Of a stretch of DNA of 64,000 nucleotides, positions 1 to 16,397 are shown piece by piece (position 1 is the stretch's first letter; the number at the start of each line of letters is the position of its first letter). The position numbers and the translations under genes were made by a program. Source of the DNA: Sphaerotilus montanus (GTDB lineage Bacteria; Pseudomonadota; Gammaproteobacteria; Burkholderiales; Burkholderiaceae_C); contig NZ_JACCFH010000001.1 in the NCBI RefSeq assembly GCF_013410775.1, positions 1,116,001 to 1,180,000 on the forward strand. The letters are read 5' to 3'. A model generated the notes under the pieces. That model worked only from the letters and a program-made list of their open reading frames with translations. It was not told where the DNA came from and searched no databases.

Positions 1-1884
1 GTCGGCGACCTGCTCGACGGTGATCTCGGCCTCGACGTCGCGCACCAGCGTGCGGAAGGTCTCGGACTGGTGGGCGCGGCGCAGCGTGTCGAGCAGCTCG
101 CCCTCGTCGGCCTCGCCGGAGCGGATCCAGGCCTGGTGGCGCTCCTCCAGATCGCGGGCATAGGCGACGGCGTCGAAGCGCTCGTGCATCAGCCGGGCGT
201 CCGCCAGTTCGTCGATCACGCCCGGGTGCTGCATCAGGTAGCGCATCGGCCAGCGGGCCAGCCCGAGCAGATGCAGCAGCCGGCCGAGCACCTCGCCGCG
301 TTCGGCCAGCAGGGCCAGGTAGCTGTCGCGGCGCAGCAGCGGCTCCAGCCAGTCCACGAAGCGCAGCAGCGCGGTCTCGCCGATCTCGGGTTCGTCCTGG
401 GTCAGCCGGCGCGCGCGCATCAGCAGCCGCACCAGCCGCGCCCGTCCCTCGTCGCGCAGCAAGGCCACCCGCGGCGAGGCCACCAGCAGCCGCAGCCGCT
501 CGGCCAGCGGGGCGGACAGGCCCTCGATCTGCGGCAACTGCTCCAGCGTGGGCGGCGTGCCGTTGCAGCGGCTGCAGGTGCCCGGACCGCTGCGCGCCGG
601 CGCGCTGCGGCCGTCGTGCAGCAAGGCGTCGAACTCGGTGGCCACCAGCTCGCGGTGGGTGCACAGCGCGTCGAGCAGTTCGCAGGCATCGACCGTGCAC
701 GCCATGCGCATCGAGCCGGCGATCCAGCGCAGGTCGGCGTCCGCCGTGGGCAGCAGGTGGGTCTGCTGGTCATCGAGGTACTGGATGCGGTGCTCGACCC
801 GGCGCAGGAAGGTGTAGGCCGCCGCCAGCTTCTCCGCCGTCTCCTGCGGGATCAGGCCGACACCGGCCAGACGCTGCAGCGCCTTGAGCGTCGGGCGGGT
901 GCGGATCTCGGGGAACTGCCCGCCACGCACCACCTGCAGCAGCTGCACGGTGAACTCGATCTCGCGGATGCCACCGCGCGAGAGCTTCACGTCGTTGGCA
1001 CGCTCCGGGCGGCCGGCGGCGCGGCGGTTGGCCTCGTCGCGCACCTTCTGGTGCAGCTGGCGCAGGCCCTCGAACACGCCGTAGTCGAGATAACGCCGGT
1101 ACACGAAGGGCGTCACCACATCGCGCAGCGCCTTGGCCCGCCCGGACGTGACGGAGGCCCGTGGTGCCACGACCCGGCTCTTCAGCCAGGCGAAGCGCTC
1201 CCATTCGCGGCCCTGCACCAGGAAATACTCCTCCAGCATCGCCAGGCTCACGACCGGCGGGCCGGAATTGCCGTTGGGCCGCAGCGCCAGGTCCATGCGG
1301 AAGACGAAGCCGTCCTCGGTCACGTCGCCGATCAGGGCGCGCAGCGTGCGCGCCACCAGCGAGAAGTACTCGTGCGCGGAGATGGTGCGGCCACCGCTGG
1401 CGTTGCCGGCGGTCTGGCCGTCTTCCTCGTAGACGTAGACGAGATCGATATCGGAGGACACGTTCAGCTCGCGCGAGCCGAGCTTGCCCATGCCGATGAT
1501 CCAGAAGTCGATCGGCTGGCCCTCGGCGGTGTACGGGGCACCGTGCAGCGCATCCTGCTCGGCGCGGGCGGCGGCCAGCGCGGCTTCGAGCGTTACCTCG
1601 GCCAGCTCGGTCATCGCGCGGGTGACCACCTCGACATCGGCCTGCTGCTCGACATCAAGCACCACCAGCCGCTCCATCACCAGCTGCCGCGTCAGGCGCA
1701 GCGCCGAGGCCAGGCTGCGTCCACGGGCCAGCCAGGCGTCCAGCGTGGCCTGCATGGACGCCCGGTCGGGCGGGCCATCGGCCAGCAGCGCCAGATCGGC
1801 CCCTCGGACCCTGCGCACCCGCTGCACGTAGCGGCTGTGGTCGGCGGTGGCGGTCGTCACTGCGGTCTCGGACGGGGTCTGCAT
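1..1884 (-). CDS. glnE: GlnE, bifunctional glutamine synthetase adenylyltransferase/adenylyl-removing enzyme (partial)
   Basis: GlnE adds and removes AMP on the regulatory tyrosine of glutamine synthetase in response to PII and glutamine. The minus frame is open for 628 codons from the ATG at 1884 to the window edge, so the C-terminal part lies outside. About 150 residues in is the signature GMGKLGSRELNVSSDIDLVY of the first nucleotidyltransferase domain, followed by RMDLALRPNG and SRGGIREIEFTVQLLQVVRGG. These mark the adenylyl-removing half and the start of the linker; the second nucleotidyltransferase motif is expected beyond the window. The family is usually 900-1000 residues, which fits the truncation. 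Its substrate GlnA is encoded at 40824-42239 and keeps the target tyrosine motif. The gene is divergent from yhdP with a 67-bp gap. Confidence 0.96.
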   Translation of the reverse strand, partial: MQTPSETAVTTATADHSRYVQRVRRVRGADLALLADGPPDRASMQATLDAWLARGRSLASALRLTRQLVMERLVVLDVEQQADVEVVTRAMTELAEVTLEAALAAARAEQDALHGAPYTAEGQPIDFWIIGMGKLGSRELNVSSDIDLVYVYEEDGQTAGNASGGRTISAHEYFSLVARTLRALIGDVTEDGFVFRMDLALRPNGNSGPPVVSLAMLEEYFLVQGREWERFAWLKSRVVAPRASVTSGRAKALRDVVTPFVYRRYLDYGVFEGLRQLHQKVRDEANRRAAGRPERANDVKLSRGGIREIEFTVQLLQVVRGGQFPEIRTRPTLKALQRLAGVGLIPQETAEKLAAAYTFLRRVEHRIQYLDDQQTHLLPTADADLRWIAGSMRMACTVDACELLDALCTHRELVATEFDALLHDGRSAPARSGPGTCSRCNGTPPTLEQLPQIEGLSAPLAERLRLLVASPRVALLRDEGRARLVRLLMRARRLTQDEPEIGETALLRFVDWLEPLLRRDSYLALLAERGEVLGRLLHLLGLARWPMRYLMQHPGVIDELADARLMHERFDAVAYARDLEERHQAWIRSGEADEGELLDTLRRAHQSETFRTLVRDVEAEITVEQVAD

Positions 1885-1951
1885 GGCATGCTTTCGGGTC
1901 TGTGCTAGCTTCGCTGTGTTCAATTCACCGGCGCCTGGTTCGGCTGCATTC

Positions 1952-4900
1952 ATGCCTGTGGTTCCCTGGTCATCCGATCTGCTGCACTGGAGCCGGCGCG
2001 CCGGCGGCATGGTGCTGCGCGTCGCATTCTGGAGCATTGCTGCCGTTGCCGCGCTGACGTTGACCGCGTGGCTGATCCTGCAGTGGGGGATTTTGCCCCG
2101 ACTGGACACCTGGCGCCCCGGGCTGGAAACCTGGGCCAGCCGCTCGCTGGGCATGGACGTCCGCCTGGGGGCGCTGCAGGTCACCGGGGACGCGTGGGCG
2201 CCGGTGGTGACGCTGAGCGACCTGCGCATGGTGGATCCGCACGGGCATGAAGCCCTGCGGCTGGCCCGGGTCGAGGCGGTCATCACCCCAGGCTCCCTGC
2301 TGCCGCGCTCCCTCACGCGCTGGTGGCCGCACGTGCAGCGGCTGGAACTGGACGCCCTGCATCTGGCGCTGCGCCGGGACCGGCGCGGGCAGATCTTCCT
2401 GGCCGGACTGCCGCTGGAGCGCACCGACGCCCGCAACGAGGATGGCCGCGTGGCCGACTGGCTGTTCAGCCAGGCCGAGATCCGGCTGCGCGGCGCCAGC
2501 CTGTCGTGGCACGACGAACAGCGGGGCGCCGACCCGCTGGTGCTCACCGGCGTCGATCTGGACCTGCGCAACCCGGTCGGCCGGCACGTCCTGCGCCTGA
2601 GTGCCACGCCGCCCGAGGGATGGGGCAGCCGCTTCTTCGCCAGTGCCGAAATGGCGCGACCGCTGCGCTCGCTGCTGTCGATGACCGGGTTGCAGCACCC
2701 GGGGGACTGGCGGCAATGGGCCGGTGTCGTGCAGGCCGACTGGCCGCTGGTGGATGTCAGCCAGTTGCGCCGGCATGTCGACCTGCCCTTCGACCTGATG
2801 GAGGGCCGCGGCCGGCTCGCCACCCGCATCGACGTGGCGCAGGGCCGCCTGACCGGGGCCACCGCGGACCTGCAGCTGCAAGCGGTCACGCTGCGCCTGG
2901 CCAGGGGACTGCCGCCCGTGGCGCTGCGGCGCATCGCCGGCCAGCTGGAAGTGCGCCACGGCGACCAGGGCAGCGTGGTCCGGGCACGCCAGCTGTCCTT
3001 CCAGTCGCAGCCACCGGCCGATGCCACCGCCAGCACCGCCACCCCCGACCCGAGCCTCTGGCCCGCCACCGATCTGGAGCTGCGGCTCGACGGGCCCGCC
3101 GGCGCCTGGACGGGCGGCGCCTTCAAGGCCTCGCTGGTCGATCTGGGGCTGCTGGCGCAATCGGCCGCCCATGTGCCGCTGGCCGGACCGATGCGGCGCC
3201 TGCTGGACGCCACCCGCCCGCGCGGCCAGCTGCGACAGTTCGCCTACGAATGGGCCGGCGATCCGGAGCGGCCCACCCGCTGGCGTGCCCGCGGCGCCGC
3301 TGACGCCCTGAGTCTCGCGGCCGAGCCGGCCACCACCGCCCTCACGTCGACCGCCACGCCCGGGCGCCCGGGCATGCACGGCGGACACGTGCGTTTCGAC
3401 GTCACGGACCTCGGCGGCCAGGCCGATCTGCGCATCGCCCAGGGGGATCTGGAGTTTCCGGGGGTGTTCGAGCAGCCCCGCGTGGCCCTCGATCGGCTGC
3501 AGGCCGACGTGCGCTGGACGCTGCAGCGCCCGGCTGCCGCCCCCGCTGGCACCCGCCCGGCCATCGAGGTCCACGTCCGGCGCGCAGTCTTCGACACCGC
3601 CGATGGCGCGGGCGAGTTCTCCGGGCGCTGGCACACCGGCCCGACCGCCGGCCCGGTCTTCGGTCCTGCGGGCTGGCTGCCCGGCCGCATCGATCTGGAG
3701 GCCCGGGTCCACCAGATCCACGCCGACCGCATCCACCGCTACCTGCCGCTGGGCATCGCCGGGTCGGTCCGCGACTACCTGCGCGCGGCACTCGTGGCCG
3801 GATCGGCACGCGAGGTGCATGCCCGCGTGCGCGGCCCGGTGCTCGACTTTCCCTACACCCGGCCCGGACAGGGCGAGTTCGCCATCGCCGGTCGTTTCGA
3901 GCAGGTCACCTTCGACGCGGTGCCCGACAGCACCTGGCCCCGCTACACCGACGGCGCCGGCCACCTCGTCGTCCAGGGCCACCAGCTGCGGCTGCTGCAG
4001 ACCCGTGCCCGGCTCGGCCAGACCGGCAGCGGCCAATTCGCGCTGGAGGACATCGAAGGCGGCATCGACCAGCTGGCCCACGACCCCGTGCTGCGCCTGA
4101 CCGGCCTGGGCCACGGCACCACGGCCGATGCGCTGCAGTACCTGCGCGACAGTCCGCTCGACGGCTGGCTGGACCACGCGTTCCTGCCCGCCCGCGGCGA
4201 CGGCCAGACCCGGCTCGCGCTGCAGATCGCCGTGCCCCTGCAACAGGCCAGGGACACGACGGTGGCCGGCCGGGTCGATCTGAGCGAGACGCGACTGCAG
4301 ATGCGTCCGGACGTGCCGGCGCTGGAGGCCGTGCAGGCACGCCTCGAATTCACCGAGCGCCAGTTCCACCTGACGCAGGGCAGTGCGCAGGTCGCGGGCG
4401 GTCGGTTCGCCTTCGACGGCCACCTCGACGAGGCCGGTGTGCTGCGATTCGCCGGCCAGGGCCACGCCACAGCCCAGGGTCTGCGCGACCTGGGTGCGAT
4501 CGACCCGGTCGTCCGGCTCGCACACCAGTTCGACGGCCAGGCGGACTACCGCCTGCAACTGGCCCTGACCCCAGGCGGCCCGACCGTCCAGGTGGACAGC
4601 GATCTGGTCGGACTGGCCAGCCGTCTGCCGGCACCGCTGAACAAGCCCGCCGCACAGCCCGTCGTGCTGCGGGTCCGTCTCCAGCCCCAGGCACAAGCCG
4701 CCAGTCCGGCCACCGCGACGCTGCTGGAGATCGACGCCCGCACGGCGGCCGCGCCGCTGCTGTCCACCCGACTGCTGCACGATGGCGACCCTGTGAACGG
4801 CGGGCTGCGCGGGCAGATCCGGATCGGCAGCGCCGAGCAGGGGCCCTCGCCTGACAAGGGCATCGACATCGGCATCGCGCTGCCACGGCTGTCGCTGGAC

Positions 4901-6160
4901 GACTGGCAGACCTGGCTGCAACGGGCACGGCAGGCCGGCCATCTGCCCTCGGTGGACCACCCGGGCGCGCCGGACGAGGCCCACGGACTGCCGCTGCACC
5001 AGATCCGGCTGCAGGTGGCCGACCTCGCCACCCACGGCCACCGCCTGACCGGCGTCGACGCCACGCTGCAGCCGTCCGGCACGCCCGTCCGCACCTGGAC
5101 CGGCACGATCGAGGCCGACCAGCTGGCGGGCCGGATCACGCTGCGCACCGCGACACCGCAGACCCCTGCCACCCTGCAGGCGCGACTCGGCCGGCTGGCC
5201 CTGCCGTGGCCGACGGCACCGCTCGCCGAGTCCATCGCCCGTCCCGAACCTGGCGCGGAACCCCTGCCAGGGCTGGATGTGGTCGTCGAGGACCTGGTGT
5301 TCGGCGGCAGGCACCTCGGCCGGCTCGAATTGCAGGGCGGTCCGAACCCGGACACCCGGCTGCCCACCGTGGTCAACGGCGAATGGCGCCTGAACCAGCT
5401 CGCTCTGACCCGGCCCGAGGCCCGCCTGAGCGCCGTGGGCGTGTGGGATCCGGCGGACCGGGAGGGGGCGACCGGAACGGGCACCAGCCGCCTCACCTTC
5501 CGGCTGGACGTGGACGACGGCGGCCGCTGGCTCGACCAGCTCGGCTGGACAGGCCTGCTGGAGGGCGGCCGCGGCTACCTCGGCGGCCAGCTGCGCTGGC
5601 CCGGCCCGCCAACGGCACTGACGCTGGCACAGCTGGGTGGCACGGTGCGCCTCGACGTCGACAACGGCCAGTTCCTGCAGGCCGAGCCGGGCGCCGGTCG
5701 GCTGTTCGGCGCGCTGAATCTGCAGTCGCTGCCACGGCGCCTGTCGCTCGATTTCCGGGACCTGTACCAGAAGGGGTTCAGCTTCGACCGCATCGATGGC
5801 GACGTGCAGATCCGCCTCGGCGCGGCGGACACGCACAACCTGCGCGTGCGCGGCGTGCAGGCCATGGTGCTGGCCGAAGGCAGCGCCAGCCTGACGAGTG
5901 CGACCCAGGATCTGCGGGTCTGGATCGTGCCGGACCTGAACGCTGGTGCCGCGTCCCTGGCCTACGCGGTGATCAACCCCGCCGTGGGGCTCGGCACGCT
6001 GGTGACGCAGTGGCTGCTGCAGCGCCCGCTGACCGAGGCGGCCACGCGCGAGTACCGCGTCACCGGCCCCTGGGGGGCCCCACAGATCACGCCGGTCGAC
6101 CGCTCCCCCCTGCCCACGTCCATGCCATTGCCCTTGACCCGAAAGGACCGCTCCCCATGA
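1952..6160 (+). CDS. yhdP: YhdP/AsmA-like family envelope protein
   Basis: A large protein of about 1402 residues with one N-terminal membrane helix (roughly residues 20-45) followed by a long beta-rich periplasmic region. In E. coli, YhdP, TamB and YdbH act redundantly in moving phospholipids to the outer membrane; that role is carried over here by family only. The C-terminal stretch, with DLYQKGFSFDRIDGDVQI and VIVPDLN-like AsmA C-terminal signatures, supports the assignment. The frame is open from 1847, but that would overlap glnE, so the ATG at 1952 is chosen; 2009 is also possible just before the helix. The stop TGA overlaps the ATG of the amidase gene, implying translational coupling. 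Confidence 0.88.
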   Translation: MPVVPWSSDLLHWSRRAGGMVLRVAFWSIAAVAALTLTAWLILQWGILPRLDTWRPGLETWASRSLGMDVRLGALQVTGDAWAPVVTLSDLRMVDPHGHEALRLARVEAVITPGSLLPRSLTRWWPHVQRLELDALHLALRRDRRGQIFLAGLPLERTDARNEDGRVADWLFSQAEIRLRGASLSWHDEQRGADPLVLTGVDLDLRNPVGRHVLRLSATPPEGWGSRFFASAEMARPLRSLLSMTGLQHPGDWRQWAGVVQADWPLVDVSQLRRHVDLPFDLMEGRGRLATRIDVAQGRLTGATADLQLQAVTLRLARGLPPVALRRIAGQLEVRHGDQGSVVRARQLSFQSQPPADATASTATPDPSLWPATDLELRLDGPAGAWTGGAFKASLVDLGLLAQSAAHVPLAGPMRRLLDATRPRGQLRQFAYEWAGDPERPTRWRARGAADALSLAAEPATTALTSTATPGRPGMHGGHVRFDVTDLGGQADLRIAQGDLEFPGVFEQPRVALDRLQADVRWTLQRPAAAPAGTRPAIEVHVRRAVFDTADGAGEFSGRWHTGPTAGPVFGPAGWLPGRIDLEARVHQIHADRIHRYLPLGIAGSVRDYLRAALVAGSAREVHARVRGPVLDFPYTRPGQGEFAIAGRFEQVTFDAVPDSTWPRYTDGAGHLVVQGHQLRLLQTRARLGQTGSGQFALEDIEGGIDQLAHDPVLRLTGLGHGTTADALQYLRDSPLDGWLDHAFLPARGDGQTRLALQIAVPLQQARDTTVAGRVDLSETRLQMRPDVPALEAVQARLEFTERQFHLTQGSAQVAGGRFAFDGHLDEAGVLRFAGQGHATAQGLRDLGAIDPVVRLAHQFDGQADYRLQLALTPGGPTVQVDSDLVGLASRLPAPLNKPAAQPVVLRVRLQPQAQAASPATATLLEIDARTAAAPLLSTRLLHDGDPVNGGLRGQIRIGSAEQGPSPDKGIDIGIALPRLSLDDWQTWLQRARQAGHLPSVDHPGAPDEAHGLPLHQIRLQVADLATHGHRLTGVDATLQPSGTPVRTWTGTIEADQLAGRITLRTATPQTPATLQARLGRLALPWPTAPLAESIARPEPGAEPLPGLDVVVEDLVFGGRHLGRLELQGGPNPDTRLPTVVNGEWRLNQLALTRPEARLSAVGVWDPADREGATGTGTSRLTFRLDVDDGGRWLDQLGWTGLLEGGRGYLGGQLRWPGPPTALTLAQLGGTVRLDVDNGQFLQAEPGAGRLFGALNLQSLPRRLSLDFRDLYQKGFSFDRIDGDVQIRLGAADTHNLRVRGVQAMVLAEGSASLTSATQDLRVWIVPDLNAGAASLAYAVINPAVGLGTLVTQWLLQRPLTEAATREYRVTGPWGAPQITPVDRSPLPTSMPLPLTRKDRSP

Positions 6161-6975
6161 AGATCGCCGCTCTCCAGATGGTATCGACGCCCCGGGTCGA
6201 GGACAACCTCGCCCGCGCCGCGGAACTGGTCGCCCAGGCGGCCGCGCAGGGGGCGGAGCTGGTCGTGCTGCCCGAATACTTCTGCCTGATGGGCCGGCAG
6301 GACCGTGACAAGCTCGCGGTGGCGGAGTCGGCGGGCCACGGGCCGATCCAGGCGCTGCTGTCCGGTCTGGCGCGCCAGCACCGGCTGTGGCTGGTCGGCG
6401 GCACGCTGCCGATGGCGCTGGAGGGGGACCCCGAGCACGCCTCGAACACCTCGCTCGTCTTCGGGCCGGACGGCACGCTCGCCGCCCGCTACGACAAGAT
6501 CCACCTGTTCCGCTACGACGACGGCGAGCGCCGCTACGACGAGGCGGCCACGCTGCGCCCCGGCGAACAGCCGGTGGCCTTCGACGCCACCGCCCGGGAC
6601 GGCACGGTGCACCGGGTGGGACTGTCGGTCTGCTACGACCTGCGGTTTCCGGAGCTGTACCGGCGCCTGATGCAGCCGCCCTGCAGCGTGCTGGTGGTGC
6701 CGGCTGCGTTCACATGGCCGACCGGACAGGCGCACTGGGAGCTGCTGCTGCGCGCCCGGGCGGTGGAAAACCAGTGTTACGTCATTGCCAGCGCCCAGGG
6801 CGGCCGGCACGAGAACGGCCGGCGCACCTGGGGCCACTCGATGGTGATCGACCCCTGGGGCACCGTGCTGGCGGTGCAGGACGAAGGCGACGGGGTCGTG
6901 TGCGCGGAGCTGGACAGGGCCCAGCTGGCGCGCGTGCGGACCCAGTTGCCGGCGCTGCAGCACCGCCGGCTCTGA
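6157..6975 (+). CDS. Carbon-nitrogen hydrolase, Nit1/deaminated glutathione amidase type
   Basis: A 272-residue nitrilase-superfamily amidase. The catalytic triad is visible as Glu40 (LPEYF), Lys114 (YDKIHLF) and Cys159 (SVCYDLRFPE). The motifs RYDKIHLFRYDD and CYDLRFPELYR are typical of the Nit/YbeM branch, which hydrolyses deaminated glutathione as a metabolite-repair enzyme; that substrate is inferred from the family. The ATG overlaps the yhdP stop as ATGA, and a purine-rich GAAAGGA lies at 6141-6147, so the start is well supported. The gene converges with the ATP-grasp gene that ends at 6998, leaving 22 bp between them. Confidence 0.92.
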   Translation: MKIAALQMVSTPRVEDNLARAAELVAQAAAQGAELVVLPEYFCLMGRQDRDKLAVAESAGHGPIQALLSGLARQHRLWLVGGTLPMALEGDPEHASNTSLVFGPDGTLAARYDKIHLFRYDDGERRYDEAATLRPGEQPVAFDATARDGTVHRVGLSVCYDLRFPELYRRLMQPPCSVLVVPAAFTWPTGQAHWELLLRARAVENQCYVIASAQGGRHENGRRTWGHSMVIDPWGTVLAVQDEGDGVVCAELDRAQLARVRTQLPALQHRRL

Positions 6976-6997
6976 ACCGGCCCGCGCAGGCCACGCA

Positions 6998-8257
6998 TCA
7001 GGCCGCGTTCAGACCGAGCCGGCTGCGCACCCAGCGGCCGCTGCCCCGGCACTTGAGCGCCAGCCAGTCGACCGTCATCTGCACCGGCGGCCCCATGTCG
7101 CTCAGGTCGAACGCACGGTAGACCATGCCCGGGCGCAGCACCGTGCGCAGGTACTCGCCCCAGCCCAGGCGGCCTTCGCGGGACAGCACCCGGAACGCAC
7201 GGAAGTCGGCCTTGGCGCTCAGGTAGCGCAGGCCCACCCGCCACGCGGTCGGCGCCGCCTCCGGCCGGCCACAGACTTCGCTGTAGACCAGCCAGGGCAG
7301 GTTGAAGCCGGCCCGGGTCAGCAGCAGGCTGTTGGCACTCAGCCGCGGATTGACCTCCAGCAGCATGAACTGCCCGGTGCGGGCGTCGCGCTTGAAGTTC
7401 ATCACCACCATGCCGCGCAGCTTCAGCAGCGCGAGGATGTCGCTGGCCTCGGCCTCCAGGTCCGGCATCGAGACGGTCTCGACCAGGCAGCCCGTGCCGA
7501 CCTGAACCGGGAAGGTGCGCCACTTGCGGGTTGTCGCCACACGTTCGATCGGGCCGCTGCGGCTGATCCACGCGTGCACGCTGTAGTGCAGGTCGTCGCT
7601 GCCGGGCACGTAGTCCTGGAGCAGCACGTCCAGCCCGTGCGGCGCGATGCGGCAGCACACCCGCATCAGCTCTGCCGGCTCGTCGATCACCAGTGCCTTG
7701 GCCCGCGCGATCTCCGGGTCCATGCCCGGGCGCATCCAGGCTGTCGGCTGCGCCGGCTTGAGCACGACCGGATAGTCGATCACCCGGCTGAGCGCTTCAA
7801 CCTCTTCGAGCGTGCGCGGCGCATGCGTCACCGGCACTGGCAGGCGCAGCGCCTGGGCCAGTGCGGCGAAACGGCGCTTGTCCATCATGCGGTTCACCGT
7901 GTCGGGCGAGGCCGAGACCCACAAGGCCGTGCCGACCAGGTCCGCGTGCAGCGAGGCCAGGGCCCGCAGGTCGGTGTCGGCGGTCGGGAACACCGGCAGG
8001 GCCTGTCCGTGCCGCACCCGCAGTTCGCGCAGCACGCGCAGCAGGTGCTCCGGGCGGCGCGTGAAGTTGCGGGCGCAGATGTATTCGATGCAGTGGCGCG
8101 AGTAGCCCGACGGCGGAAACTCGTATTCGCCGATGACGATCACCGGCACCCCCTGCTCGCCCAGCGAGCGCACCATGTTCAGGTCGGCCCCCTGGGCCCC
8201 CAGGCAGGCGAGCACGACGGCTGGGCTTCGGGACGGGGTCTGGATATCAGAAGTCAT
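6998..8257 (-). CDS. ATP-grasp family carboxylate-amine ligase-like protein (copy 1)
   Basis: A 419-residue soluble protein with an N-terminal Rossmann-like segment (AVVLACLGAQGADLNMVRSL, residues 13-32) and an ATP-grasp fold. Lys167 in YPVVLKPAQPT is the expected nucleotide-binding lysine, and Glu301-Val-Asn303 in LLEVNPRL the metal-binding pair. It is a clear paralogue of the gene at 9721-11001, with the same residues at matching places throughout. ATP-grasp ligases couple ATP to joining a carboxylate to an amine or thiol; the substrate is unknown here. It is the last gene of a four-gene minus-strand set and has its own 160-bp upstream gap, which carries a motif shared with the head of the set. 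Confidence 0.85.
   Translation of the reverse strand: MTSDIQTPSRSPAVVLACLGAQGADLNMVRSLGEQGVPVIVIGEYEFPPSGYSRHCIEYICARNFTRRPEHLLRVLRELRVRHGQALPVFPTADTDLRALASLHADLVGTALWVSASPDTVNRMMDKRRFAALAQALRLPVPVTHAPRTLEEVEALSRVIDYPVVLKPAQPTAWMRPGMDPEIARAKALVIDEPAELMRVCCRIAPHGLDVLLQDYVPGSDDLHYSVHAWISRSGPIERVATTRKWRTFPVQVGTGCLVETVSMPDLEAEASDILALLKLRGMVVMNFKRDARTGQFMLLEVNPRLSANSLLLTRAGFNLPWLVYSEVCGRPEAAPTAWRVGLRYLSAKADFRAFRVLSREGRLGWGEYLRTVLRPGMVYRAFDLSDMGPPVQMTVDWLALKCRGSGRWVRSRLGLNAA
8135..8173 (-). repeat. 39-nt block identical to 10828-10866 (ATP-grasp copy 1)
   Basis: This stretch inside ATP-grasp copy 1 is base-for-base identical to 10828-10866 in copy 2, and both encode VRSLGEQGVPVIV. The flanking bases differ straight away. 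The two proteins are otherwise clearly diverged, so this is either a conserved hot spot kept by codon bias or a trace of gene conversion. Confidence 0.8.
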
Positions 8258-8308
8258 GGTGGGGAAAGATCCGCTCTGGAAGCGTTGACCGGAAATGCTG
8301 GGAACACG

Positions 8309-8320
8309 GCCACGTTTTTA
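8309..8320. promoter_or_regulatory. 12-bp motif shared with the promoter of the FemAB-like gene
   Basis: The plus strand reads GCCACGTTTTTA here, 52 bp upstream of ATP-grasp copy 1. Its exact reverse complement is at 12299-12310, upstream of the first gene of the cluster, and a variant is at 12333-12344. The shared motif suggests a common regulator for the gap before the last gene and the head of the cluster. This is inference from sequence identity alone. Confidence 0.4.
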
Positions 8321-8417
8321 CCGGATCAGGCCGCCTGGCGGAGGCCACGCACTCCCCGTCAACAGGGGGGCTGCGCACCGGCCCGCGCAATCCGCACGGT
8401 CATCTTGCGCAGGCCGC

Positions 8418-9704
8418 TCAGCGTCCGCCAAACATCATGCGGCGCGCCAGCAGCGACTTGAGCGGACCCACCTGCCCCAGCACCGCCAGCCCCGCCCCGC
8501 GCAGCGTGCTCAGCCCCGGCCACGGCCAGGTGAAGCTGCGGGCCAGGAAATCGGTGGCGGCGATCATTGCCCAGCGGTCCGGTGCCCGCTGCCATTCGAC
8601 CCGGCGCAGCGCCTGGTCGACATCGCCGTCGCGGGCCAGCCGGGTCACGAGTTCGTGCGCATCGCGCAGGCCCAGGTTCAGGCCCTGGCCGGCGACTGGA
8701 TGCAGGGTCTGCGCCGCGTTGCCGATGCGCACCGTGCGGCCCTGCACCAGCGTGCGCTCGGCGTTGAGGCCCAGCGCGAAACCCTTGAGCGGGCTGATCG
8801 ACACCAGCCGCCCCACCCGCTCCGGCAGCAGGTGGGTCAGCACGGCCAGGCGCTGCACCTCGCTCAGTTCGGCCACCGCGTCATCCGCGCGGTCGACACA
8901 CCAGACCAGCGCCGCACGGCGCCGCACGGTGCGTCCGTCGTCGGCCAGCGTCGTGCCGGGCAGCGGCAGCAGCGCGACCGGCCCCTCGGGCGTGAAGCGC
9001 TCGTGGGCGACACCCGCCTCGCCGCCCTCCAGCCCGATCGTGCCGACCCAGGCGGTCTGGCCATAGTCGCGGGCAACGGCCTTGCGGGCCTGCTCGGCGA
9101 ACACGCCGCCCTCCGCGATCACCGCCAGATGGTGCGACTCGACCAGGGCCCCGCCAGCCCCGGAGGCCGCGCCGACATCGATCTCCACTCCGCCGGGCAC
9201 CGTGCGCACGCCGCTCACCGCGCTGCCCCAGCGCACGGACAACCGACCCGGCTCGCGGGCACAGGCCGCCAGCCACGCCGCCCGCATCGGCGCGGCCAGT
9301 GCCCCATAGGGAATCACCGCGCCCAGTTGCGGCACGCCTTCGTCCTCCGCGCGCATCAGCAACTCGGGCGCAGGCGCCTTGCCGAGCAGGTCCAGCAGTC
9401 CCGGCTGCTGCTGCGACACGTGCACCGCCAGGATCGGCTCGGCGCGCTCGGCCATGTCCGCCCAGACGCCCAGCCGCTGCAACTCCAGCACGCTGCCCTG
9501 CGACAGCGCCAGCGTGCGCGGATCGCCGCTGACGTCGTGGTCGACGGACAGACGGTCGTAGACACACACCTGCGCGGACGGCAGGCGGCGTGCAGCCGAC
9601 AGCGCCAGCGCCAGACCGACCGGGCCGGCACCGACCACGGCCAGTTGCAGCACCGGGACATGGACATGGGCATGGGCATGGGCCCTCGAAAGGACAGCGG
9701 ACAT
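8418..9704 (-). CDS. UbiH/UbiF/COQ6-family FAD-dependent hydroxylase
   Basis: A 428-residue flavoprotein monooxygenase. The N-terminal FAD fingerprint is AVVGAGPVGLALALSAARR; SGDPRTLALSQGSVLELQRLG and RIGNAAQTLHPVAGQGLNLG (C-terminal third) are the UbiH/COQ6 family motifs. Members hydroxylate the ring of ubiquinone intermediates using O2 and NAD(P)H. The ATG at 9704 has an AGGAG six bases upstream; a longer frame to 9755 would run into the preceding gene. The first residues contain a His-Ala/His-Val run (AHAHAHVHV) from a short ATG-GGC microrepeat. It sits between two ATP-grasp paralogues, 16 bp after copy 2. It could serve ubiquinone synthesis or hydroxylate a product of this cluster; I cannot decide from sequence. 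Confidence 0.88.
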   Translation of the reverse strand: MSAVLSRAHAHAHVHVPVLQLAVVGAGPVGLALALSAARRLPSAQVCVYDRLSVDHDVSGDPRTLALSQGSVLELQRLGVWADMAERAEPILAVHVSQQQPGLLDLLGKAPAPELLMRAEDEGVPQLGAVIPYGALAAPMRAAWLAACAREPGRLSVRWGSAVSGVRTVPGGVEIDVGAASGAGGALVESHHLAVIAEGGVFAEQARKAVARDYGQTAWVGTIGLEGGEAGVAHERFTPEGPVALLPLPGTTLADDGRTVRRRAALVWCVDRADDAVAELSEVQRLAVLTHLLPERVGRLVSISPLKGFALGLNAERTLVQGRTVRIGNAAQTLHPVAGQGLNLGLRDAHELVTRLARDGDVDQALRRVEWQRAPDRWAMIAATDFLARSFTWPWPGLSTLRGAGLAVLGQVGPLKSLLARRMMFGGR

Positions 9705-9720
9705 CTCGGCTCCTGAGCGG

Positions 9721-11001
9721 TCAGGAGGGTGACCGCAGGCGCATTTTCTCCGCAATCCAGCGCAGGGTGAGCTGGCGGGCGGGGCCGGGATCCCGCAGGC
9801 TCAGCACCTGACAGACCATCGGGCGCTTCAGCAGCGAGCGCAGGTAGCCGCTCCAGGTCCAGAGCCCCTCGCGCACATAGCCGCGGACTGCGCGGAAATC
9901 GCTCTTGCCGCTGACGTACCAGAGCCCGGACTGCCGCGGCGGCGGCGCCTCCTGTGCCAGTCCGCAGACATCGCGGTAGGCCATCCACGGCAGGTTCACC
10001 CCGGAGCGGGTGGTCAGGATGCTCCACTGGCTCACCCGGGCGTTGATCTCCAGCAGCTTGAACTCGCCCGTGCGGCTGTGGCGCTTGAAATTGAGGTTGG
10101 CGATGCCGCGGTAGCCGATCCGCTGCAGCAGGTCCGCCACCATCGCCTCCAGCGCCGGCTCGTGCAGGCTCTCGACATAGCAGCCGCTGCCCACATGGGG
10201 CGGCTGGATGCGCCACTTGCGGCCACAGAACGTGGCGCGGGCCTCGCCGTGCTGGTCGATGAAGGCGTGCACGTCGTAGTGCTCGGCATCGTCACCCGGC
10301 ACGTATTCCTGCAGGATCAACGCCAGGCCCCAGGGCGCCACCGTGCGACAGATATCCATCAGCTCGCCGTGCGACTCCACCACGATGGCCTTGGCCAGGC
10401 TGATCGCGCGTGGCAGCGCCGGGTGCCTCCAGGACGTCGGCAGCGAGGGCTTGACGATGGCCGGGTAGGTCAGCATCCCGGCGCCCTGCTCGGCCTCTGC
10501 CAGCGAGTGTGGCGTGAAGGTGCGCGGCACCGGCAGCCCGGCGCGCGTGGCCAGTTCGCTGAAGGCTCCCTTGTCCATCAGCGTCAGCACCAGCGCAGGA
10601 TCGGCCATCGTGGAGCGCATGTACGGCCGGGTGGCGTCACCGAGCCGGCTCAGCGCCTCCAGATCCGGGTCGGCCGACGGAAACACCGGCAACGGCCCGC
10701 CATGGCGCCGCGACAACTCCGCGAGCGCCGCCAGCAGTTCCTGCGGATGTCCGCCGAAATCGGGCACCTGCACGAACTCGATGCAGTAACGCGAGTAGCG
10801 GGACGGCGGGTCGGCATATTCACCCAGGACGATCACCGGCACCCCCTGCTCGCCCAGCGAGCGCACAAGGTTCAGATCCCCTTCCGGGGCACCGGCGCAC
10901 GCGAGAACGACGGCGGGCTGGCAACCCACCGCCGGGGATATGTTGTTGTACATGCAGATAGAGGGACAGGGAACCGGGCCGATCTCCACCGGAAACCGCA
11001 T
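9721..11001 (-). CDS. ATP-grasp family carboxylate-amine ligase-like protein (copy 2)
   Basis: A 426-residue ATP-grasp protein paralogous to the gene at 6998-8257. Lys184 (YPAIVKPSLPTS) and Glu318-Ile-Asn320 (LLEINARV) are the nucleotide and metal ligands. The N-terminal segment PAVVLACAGAPEGDLNLVRS and the following GVPVIVLGEYADPPSRYSRY match copy 1 closely. The start at 11001 has GGAG about ten bases upstream; an ATG at 10953, closer to the start of homology with copy 1, is an alternative. It lies 24 bp after the FemAB-like gene and 16 bp before the flavin hydroxylase gene, so the three are probably one transcript. Substrate unknown. Confidence 0.85.
   Translation of the reverse strand: MRFPVEIGPVPCPSICMYNNISPAVGCQPAVVLACAGAPEGDLNLVRSLGEQGVPVIVLGEYADPPSRYSRYCIEFVQVPDFGGHPQELLAALAELSRRHGGPLPVFPSADPDLEALSRLGDATRPYMRSTMADPALVLTLMDKGAFSELATRAGLPVPRTFTPHSLAEAEQGAGMLTYPAIVKPSLPTSWRHPALPRAISLAKAIVVESHGELMDICRTVAPWGLALILQEYVPGDDAEHYDVHAFIDQHGEARATFCGRKWRIQPPHVGSGCYVESLHEPALEAMVADLLQRIGYRGIANLNFKRHSRTGEFKLLEINARVSQWSILTTRSGVNLPWMAYRDVCGLAQEAPPPRQSGLWYVSGKSDFRAVRGYVREGLWTWSGYLRSLLKRPMVCQVLSLRDPGPARQLTLRWIAEKMRLRSPS
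10828..10866 (-). repeat. 39-nt block identical to 8135-8173 (ATP-grasp copy 2)
   Basis: This is the partner of the block at 8135-8173, in the same reading frame and at the equivalent protein position, encoding VRSLGEQGVPVIV. It shows that the two ATP-grasp genes derive from one another or have exchanged sequence. Confidence 0.8.
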
Positions 11002-11025
11002 CCCGGACCGACTCCAGCAGAGGAA

Positions 11026-12180
11026 TCAGGCTTCGACTTGCTGGATTATTGCGTCAATTTCCGGCTTCGGCCGCCTGGCCTGCCGGGAATCTCGCAGGCG
11101 CCGGGTCGCCGTCAAGGCACAGGACGCCATGCGGCTGGACGGCATCAGCAGCAGCCCGAGCGACCGCCGGTCAGGCCAGAGCCGGTTGATGAACGAATCG
11201 GCCGAAGCGCCACTGTCGAAGGCCGCCAGATCCGGACAATGGGTGCGGACCTGCCGGATGAACTCGACCTCGTTGAGCATGCCGGGGCCGAGCTTGCGCA
11301 GCTCCGGATCCCAGCCCACCTTGAAGGCGAAGCCCATCGACCCGGAGACAAAATTGCAGGTGGACGCCACCGCACGGCCATCGACCCGCAGTTCGGTGAA
11401 CAGCGCCCGGCCGTCCCGGTCGAAGCGCGCCACCATGTCGCGGAAGAAGTCCTCGCCGGCCTTGGTCGAACGCATCGAGGTGCCGGACTCGCCTTTCCAG
11501 CCCAGATGCTCCAGGCGCAGGAAATCCTCGACCGATGCCTCGGGAATGTCCTTGCGCAGGCAATGCCAGCGGACCTCGCCCTGCTCGGCGAGCCGGCGCA
11601 TGCAGCGGTTGATCTCGTTGAGCTTCTTGCCGAGGGTCTCGCGCAGCAGGTCTTCGCCGCAACCGGCCACCGTCAGCATCGACCGCTCCTGCGGCCCCAG
11701 CAGTTGCGCCGGCAGGCGGTGCTGCTGCGCAACCTGCCGGACCGCTTCGGCCAGCTTGCCCGTGGTGTCCACCTTGGGCAGCTCCAGCCCCTTCCAGACA
11801 CAACCCGGCCGGGCCAGGAAGCCCCGGATCGCCTCGACCACCGGGCCGACCGCATCACCATCGACCAGCAGCCCCCCCAGATAGGTGTGCTCGGACTGGT
11901 AGGCCGACAAGTGCGGCCATGGAAACACCCGGCTCGCCAGACACCGCCGGAACACGCCGACCGCGGCCAGCTCCTTCAGCCCACCGGCCGCACGCTCGAC
12001 CCACATCAGGACGACCGAGGCGCCAGCGTCCAGATGCTGCAACGCCGGCAGCACGAAGTGCGGCGACATGAACGCATTCGGCTCTGCGGCACGAGACTCC
12101 AGCGCAGCCCATGCCTGCCGATCCTTTTCACTCAGCTCCGCCGGCTGGCGCAACCTGATTTCCCACTGTGGAACTGCCAC
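11026..12180 (-). CDS. FemAB/BcsL-like acyltransferase (GNAT fold)
   Basis: A predicted soluble protein of 384 residues resembling the CelD/BcsL-type acetyltransferases, which share the FemAB fold. The middle part (LGKKLNEINRCMRRL, DFLRLEHLGWKGESGTSM) and the C-terminal part (ALFTELRVDGRAVASTCNF, YLGG-type and AFDSGASADSFINRLW segments) fit that family. Relatives transfer acyl or aminoacyl groups in cell-envelope or polysaccharide pathways; the substrate here is unknown. The frame is open to 12267, but a GTG at 12180 preceded by GGGAGGGAA at ideal spacing is the likely start, and homology-like sequence begins there. It heads the minus-strand set with two ATP-grasp ligases and a hydroxylase, which suggests a shared modification pathway. 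Confidence 0.78.
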   Translation of the reverse strand: MAVPQWEIRLRQPAELSEKDRQAWAALESRAAEPNAFMSPHFVLPALQHLDAGASVVLMWVERAAGGLKELAAVGVFRRCLASRVFPWPHLSAYQSEHTYLGGLLVDGDAVGPVVEAIRGFLARPGCVWKGLELPKVDTTGKLAEAVRQVAQQHRLPAQLLGPQERSMLTVAGCGEDLLRETLGKKLNEINRCMRRLAEQGEVRWHCLRKDIPEASVEDFLRLEHLGWKGESGTSMRSTKAGEDFFRDMVARFDRDGRALFTELRVDGRAVASTCNFVSGSMGFAFKVGWDPELRKLGPGMLNEVEFIRQVRTHCPDLAAFDSGASADSFINRLWPDRRSLGLLLMPSSRMASCALTATRRLRDSRQARRPKPEIDAIIQQVEA

Positions 12181-12298
12181 GTACTTCCCTCCCCATTGCG
12201 CCGTTGATCCTTGAATCCGTCCCGGCGTCTGCAACCATGCACCCGGGACCCCCCCATGGCGCCTCATTCTCGACGCCGGGTTTTACAGCAATCCTGAC

Positions 12299-12344
12299 TA
12301 AAAACGTGGCAAACGACCACCCCCTCAGAAACAAAACGTGACAA
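12299..12344. promoter_or_regulatory. Two direct repeats (AAAACGTGRCAA) upstream of the FemAB-like gene
   Basis: AAAACGTGGCAA at 12301-12312 and AAAACGTGACAA at 12333-12344 are 32 bp apart, about three helical turns, in the AT-richer gap between priA and the FemAB-like gene. The first copy extended by two bases (12299-12310) recurs as its reverse complement at 8309-8320. These look like operator sites; their regulator is unknown. On the coding strand the repeats read TTGYCACGTTTT and could also double as -35 elements. Confidence 0.42.
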
Positions 12345-12373
12345 CAGAATGCGGGGGATGGCTATCAAATGTT

Positions 12374-14476
<2,103 letters not shown>

Positions 14477-14587
14477 GACAGGCAACGCAGGGATGTCCAC
14501 CGAACCTGTGGATAACGTTGGGGACAAGCTGGTCAGAGCACTGTCAAGTGCCTGTCACACAAGGCATTTTCCTGGATTGCCTCAAAA

Positions 14588-15655
<1,068 letters not shown>

Positions 15656-15726
15656 GGGGGTGATTGTAGGAGGCCGCACCACCCCGCCCCACGCGCAACT
15701 GCACGGTGTTTGAGGTAACCTTCCAC

Positions 15727-15752
15727 TGTGTCGATTCGTGACTTTCGACACA
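15727..15752. promoter_or_regulatory. 8-bp inverted repeat in the hemE-lemA divergent region
   Basis: TGTGTCGA at 15727-15734 and TCGACACA at 15745-15752 are perfect inverted arms with a 10-base spacer, 28 bp before the lemA ATG. It could be an operator for lemA or an RNA hairpin in its leader. No known consensus is recognised. Confidence 0.35.
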
Positions 15753-15779
15753 CCCTGATCATTCAATGGAGGATTCGAC

Positions 15780-16397
15780 ATGTTGGGACGACTGCGCTCG
15801 TGGTGCTGGATGGTGATGAGCGCGCTGGCGCTGGTGTCGCTGACCGGCTGCGGCTACAACGATTTCCAGAAGCTGGACGAGGATGTGAAGGGCAGTTGGT
15901 CCGAAGTGCTGAACCAGTACCAGCGCCGGGCCGATCTGGTGCCCAACCTCGTCGCCACCGTCAAGGGCGAAGCCAGCTTCGAGCAGGACACGCTGACCAA
16001 GGTCGTCGAGGCCCGCGCCAAGGCGACCAGCATCCAGGCCACGCCGGAGCTGATCAACAACCCCGAGGCGTTCAAGAAGTTCCAGGCCGCGCAGGGTGAA
16101 CTGAGCGGCGCGCTGAGCCGCCTGCTGGTCGTCACCGAGAACTACCCCAACCTGAAGGCCAACCAGGGCTTCCAGGACCTGCGCGTGCAGCTCGAAGGCA
16201 CCGAAAACCGCATCACCGTGGCGCGCAACCGCTACATCAAGACGGTGCAGGAATACAACGTGCTGGCCCGCAGCTTCCCGACCAACCTGACGGCGATGGT
16301 CTTCCACTACGAGGTCAAGCCGAATCTGGCCGTGGCCAACGAGGCGCAGATCAGCCAGCCGCCCGCCGTGAGCTTCGACAAGCCCGCGGCCAAGTAA
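15780..16397 (+). CDS. lemA: LemA family lipoprotein
   Basis: A 205-residue LemA protein. The N-terminus has a membrane segment ending in a lipobox (SLTGC), so it is predicted to be lipid-anchored; the rest is helical with the family motif [18 protein letters not shown] and [20 protein letters not shown]. LemA proteins are widespread and lack a settled molecular function. GGAGG sits 8 bases before the ATG. It is followed closely by two TPM-domain genes, a common arrangement that suggests an envelope-associated trio. Confidence 0.93.

Follow-up and report, generated by a model that had tools for sequence, protein, structure and literature searches.

Peptidoglycan precursors are the substrates of the aminoacyl transferases FemX and FemA. 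The transferase described here was 10-11% identical to them in the respective rows of a structural comparison (6snr, 1ne9, 1lrz) and differed in having Acetyltransf_6 as its only Pfam hit. For the capsule of Campylobacter jejuni, the accessible text of PMC11800379 describes that the ATP-grasp domain of Cj1438 amidates glucuronic acid of the surface polysaccharide. By this description, Cj1438 shares the ATP-grasp type with our ligases and differs in being TupA-like and fused to a glycosyltransferase (PMC11800379). A third group comprises ATP-grasps from polysaccharide/exosortase-type loci of Burkholderiales (L096 and L157-L169), which are found by the same ATP-grasp profile; their identity by BLAST was 24-29% in 13 of 14 cases, L165 being found by profile only.

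A stretch of 64,000 nucleotides (the window) from a Sphaerotilus genome of 5.07 Mb was analyzed. It harbors four neighboring minus-strand genes (Table 1), and open reading frames, translations and profiles agree with the strand and order given for them in an initial annotation. The gaps of 24 bp between transferase and ligase 1 and of 16 bp between ligase 1 and the hydroxylase also hold, the latter provided that the hydroxylase starts at the internal ATG; another 160 bp separate the hydroxylase from ligase 2. The transferase start assigned initially (12180) falls inside the ORF listed here. dN/dS was 0.13-0.38 across eight comparisons of the four genes with two relatives, and the genes are therefore under purifying selection. 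A promoter scan returned no hit and a terminator scan two; neither result exceeded that of shuffled sequences. Our best explanation, which we hold tentatively, is that the transferase and both ATP-grasp ligases amidate or aminoacylate a surface polysaccharide, possibly the sheath, and that UbiH is a resident gene which they surround. The acceptor would be a cell-surface polysaccharide with an acid or amino sugar.

Table 1. Features of the locus (window positions) and exosortase genes of the same genome (G000; contig positions)
Feature	Position	Strand	Basis
Tandem-GNAT transferase (Acetyltransf_6), FemX-like predicted fold	11026..12267	-	ORF, translation, profile, model
ATP-grasp ligase 1	9721..11001	-	ORF, profile, model
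UbiH-type flavin hydroxylase	8418..9704	-	longest ORF to 9755; internal ATG start 9704
ATP-grasp ligase 2	6998..8257	-	ORF, profile
PriA, one flank of site	12374..14527	-	named by eye from translation
Nitrilase-family gene (CN_hydrolase), other flank, convergent	6154..6975	+	start inferred from match
Two exosortase genes	C1:397145 and C1:2233351		

The transferase matched Acetyltransf_6 (PF13480) with 76.4 bits at a cut-off of 22; no other Pfam model, including FemAB, was hit at E ≤ 0.01. Its predicted structure (mean pLDDT 72.8) shows two GNAT domains arranged as in FemX and fitted FemX, FemA and MprF folds better than CoA-type GNATs. Thus, the initial label "FemAB-like" is appropriate for the predicted fold, while by sequence Acetyltransf_6 is the name obtained. 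Rows 1-23 of the structural list were FemX, FemA, Sbb17/Sba18 and MprF/aminoacyl-PG synthase types, except 2hqy, the function of which is unknown. We take these matched types to use aminoacyl-tRNA, in part from the titles of the structures. In view of these rows it is unlikely that the protein is a CoA-dependent acyltransferase and that the set adds acyl instead of aminoacyl groups. Judged by its model, the transferase would function in the manner of a FemX; it was kept out of FemABX family membership because PF13480 was its sole Pfam hit. It would move an aminoacyl group, probably from aminoacyl-tRNA, onto an amine. The only NCBIfam name obtained, BspF, scored 109 bits (cut-off 775); it was rejected and read as shared GNAT ancestry. 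Midpoint-rooted phylogeny placed the window transferase with those of G011, G012, G009, G003 and two Rhodocyclales MAGs and with a second copy of G005, and separated this group from the other GNATs included (95/92); some branches were long.

Both ligases scored above the cut-off of 29.1 bits for ATPgrasp_Ter (PF15632), with 37.9 bits for ligase 1 and 30.5 bits for ligase 2; CPSase_L_D2 was also above its cut-off in both. The predicted fold is that of an ATP-grasp enzyme. The ATP-site residues K184, E318, N320 and R322 did not vary among the 23 and 22 sequences of two alignments. At the first metal-site position, both window ligases carry N, whereas relatives carry D or E; in carbamoyl phosphate synthetase it is Q. 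The N residue and the pLDDT of the transferase model were both noted against our best explanation. Neither P0002 nor P0001 matched a PDB sequence in phmmer searches at E 0.01 and 0.1. The two ligases share 46-48% identity. A recent duplication within one species was rejected, since the ligase 2 copies of six species formed one group (100/100) separate from the ligase 1 copies; the latter fell into two groups, the joining of which is not settled in this midpoint-rooted tree with long outgroup branches. As a putative activity, the ligases would join a carboxylate to an amine at the expense of ATP. Foldseek matches included the L-amino acid ligases RizA (4wd3) and 3vot as well as PylC, and among the FemX-like matches of the transferase are two antibiotic enzymes, Sbb17 and Sba18. 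Both lists are in favor of a soluble peptide-like small molecule, for which the ligases would join amino acids like L-amino acid ligases and the transferase would add another one. Inspection by eye of the genes called in window positions 1-16000 revealed neither a transporter nor a carrier protein nor a peptide synthetase, and we regard such a product as rather unlikely.

The hydroxylase matched FAD_binding_3, and its top-scoring NCBIfam models were PRK06996 and UbiH. These hits lie among the UbiH/UbiF/VisC/COQ6 ubiquinone hydroxylases, yet the gene scored 289.6 and 238.1 bits where the equivalog cut-offs are 450 and 392.2, respectively, and all five UbiH orthologues tested also stayed below them. 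The subfamily model TIGR01988 was passed by four of these five, the window gene reaching 220.0 of 224.65. UbiH was found in all 13 genomes of the genus, with one match each at E ≤ 1e-50; a second UbiH-family gene is present in the window genome, so that the hydroxylase need not be the sole one of its type. HemE, PriA, UbiH and the nitrilase gene are consecutive in six genomes (G002, G003, G008, G009, G011, G012), with no gene-sized gap among PriA, UbiH and nitrilase. In seven genomes, PriA and UbiH are separated by the transferase and ligase 1. Six of these seven have ligase 2 behind UbiH, and the contig of G007 ends at this point; the gene order was thus kept in six relatives of the window genome, G007 being counted as far as its contig reaches. 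The nitrilase gene lies close behind ligase 2 in G000, G004 and G005. The contig of G006 ends before this gene could be reached, and no nitrilase match was found in G010 within the 7.8 kb up to the contig start. In G001, probably Leptothrix sp. C29, about 2.6 kb with other ORFs lie between ligase 2 and nitrilase (L077, 11385-14033).

The seven genomes with the set at this site formed one clade (99/99) in a tree built on four genes from the same region as the set (UbiH, PriA, HemE and nitrilase). One insertion in this clade would be the simplest history, loss elsewhere being the alternative. The PriA-UbiH order as an ancient feature was rejected: outside the genus, none of six genomes had a PriA gene closer than about 1.5 kb to UbiH, and one of the six had a nitrilase match in that range. 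Most likely, UbiH is a resident of the PriA-nitrilase interval and a bystander to the set, because it occurs in all 13 genomes and in six of them without the other genes at the site. The proposal of the initial annotation, one pathway including all four genes, has on its side the short distance between ligase 1 and UbiH and an arrangement kept in seven of 13 genomes. It is nevertheless very improbable, given that UbiH is present with or without the set and that the five orthologues, taken from genomes of both groups, scored alike against UbiH models. Of the initial interpretation, the kept gene order and the co-occurrence of ligase and transferase are supported.

In a set of 60 genomes, ligase homologues with E ≤ 1e-100 were found in nine of 13 genus genomes and in none of the 47 others, five of which gave weak matches. 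Transferase homologues at the same threshold occurred in the same nine genomes; weaker ones were detected in G009 (7e-81) and G003 (2e-59), and none in G002 and G008 at E ≤ 1e-10. This co-occurrence is weak evidence because the genomes of a genus are related. A scan with the ligase alignment yielded 16 loci, namely eight of named Sphaerotilus, two of Leptothrix sp. C29 and six of other MAGs. A wider-family search for close relatives gave matches at E ≤ 1e-40 in 10 of 399 genomes; those below 1e-150 came from four genomes of the Sphaerotilus genus.

In two Rhodocyclales MAGs (L110, L111), about 0.8 kb separate a ligase (39-42%) from a convergent transferase (38-40%), and the fetched stretch contains no UbiH. 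This pair gives more independent support for the ligase-transferase link than co-occurrence within the genus, and it is a further argument against a pathway including UbiH. An unassigned ORF of about 227 aa lies between both genes; the one of the two that was searched had no Pfam match. The whole arrangement, including the MurJ or MurJ-like ORF, occupies about 8200-13200. Because ligases and transferase share the same nine of 13 genomes and the Rhodocyclales pair lacks an adjacent UbiH, the working set probably consists of the ATP-grasps and the transferase. The ATP-grasp ORF lies directly behind MurJ in L110 (55 bp; Pfam) and behind a MurJ-like ORF in L111 (51 bp; by eye). Together with the substrates of FemX and FemA, this position would suit a modification of peptidoglycan or its lipid-linked precursor by transferase and ligases. 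MurJ may, however, be a mere neighbor, like UbiH and PriA at the Sphaerotilus site, where PriA, HemE, UbiH and the nitrilase gene are the neighbors; we consider a peptidoglycan role improbable.

A third ligase copy was found beside RecQ in six of 13 genus genomes (L014, 10049-11374; L090-L094), these copies falling into two tree groups. G011 and G012 have two dispersed ligase copies each, and their transferase lies apart from the ligases, which we counted against our best explanation. ATP-grasp genes of this kind thus occur separately elsewhere, a finding which in part speaks against the initial annotation. A class-V aminotransferase-like protein (by eye) adjoins a dispersed ATP-grasp in G012 (L088, 6647-7771) and G011 (L089, 9730-10854).

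At E ≤ 1e-20, the ligase profile detected 15 of 399 Burkholderiales genomes, 14 besides that of the window. At least two polysaccharide markers were present at 12 of these 14 distant ATP-grasp loci; the two others were L163, where BLAST found no marker, and L168, which gave a single weak match. Since L157, L161 and L165 themselves supplied markers, the count excluding them is 9 of 11. In L165, an Acetyltransf_6 gene lies two genes from the ATP-grasp. Unlike these loci, the 17 close ligase loci in the genus (seven UbiH, six RecQ, four dispersed) were all free of polysaccharide markers within the stretches fetched, which counts against our best explanation. The same was observed for the fetched stretches of L110 and L111, for the loci of weaker transferase homologues (L154, L155, L156) and for the controls, i.e., the six UbiH loci of genomes without the set at this site, L018 and window positions 16001-64000. 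The role in a surface compound suggested initially is backed by the distant ligase relatives and not by the close loci. The 17 marker-free loci would also be expected for a small molecule, against which the preference of the distant relatives for polysaccharide loci can be set.

In G012 (Pfam) and G011 (BLAST), a transferase homologue was found beside a second GNAT, together with Wzy, a UDP-sugar dehydrogenase and an epimerase; its place in a polysaccharide locus of G012 argues against a function in peptidoglycan. Relatives of the second GNAT had a deacetylase match nearby in all six other loci inspected (L016, L206-L210). The Wzy of L153 was rejected as a sheath gene of the genus, as it occurred in only two of 13 genomes. 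Furthermore, a distant ATP-grasp (30%) of G007 neighbors a gene that shares 26% identity with an Acetyltransf_6 protein (L095, 367-2742). By eye, this pair adjoins an apparent two-partner secretion gene. Elsewhere in the genome, at least one exosortase gene was found in 13 of 13 genus genomes.

Sphaerotilus sheaths may contain glycine and cysteine, and to our knowledge no gene has been assigned to the non-sugar component of a sheath of this kind. The initial annotation had considered that the organism might be a sheath former; it belongs to the genus Sphaerotilus, named records of which are among the loci of the ligase scan. The ligases are absent in G009, putatively L. cholodnii and presumably strain SP-6, and present in putative S. 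natans (G010) and probable S. microaerophilus (G012). According to the available part of PMC11087309, glucuronic acid, galactosamine and glucose are the main constituents of the Sphaerotilus-type sheath, from which the Leptothrix type differs. A GalN-GlcA linkage in S. montanus polysaccharide is given in a review table (PMC11976392, accessible portion), and glucose and galactosamine in the sheath of S. montanus KMKE are stated in an excerpt of PMC6975536. Export genes wza/wzb/wzc and glycosyl transferases are mentioned in the available text of PMC13386937. The distribution of the ligases fits the sheath types, on very few typed species. In the accessible text of the open-licence literature, from which most subscription papers are absent, nothing ties these genes to a sheath; no paper was found that joins FemAB, ATP-grasp and polysaccharide, XrtA, FemAB and exopolysaccharide, or exosortase, ATP-grasp, exopolysaccharide and PEP-CTERM. 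We infer the link of the set to the sheath. It is possible but rather unlikely that the ligases and the FemX-like transferase equip the sheath polysaccharide of Sphaerotilus with arms of amino acids or peptides, the ATP-grasps amidating an acid sugar and the transferase aminoacylating an amino sugar from tRNA.

Apparently, the hydroxylase should drop out of the hypothesis. The set then offers three deletable candidate genes and is a modest candidate for decorating a surface polysaccharide.
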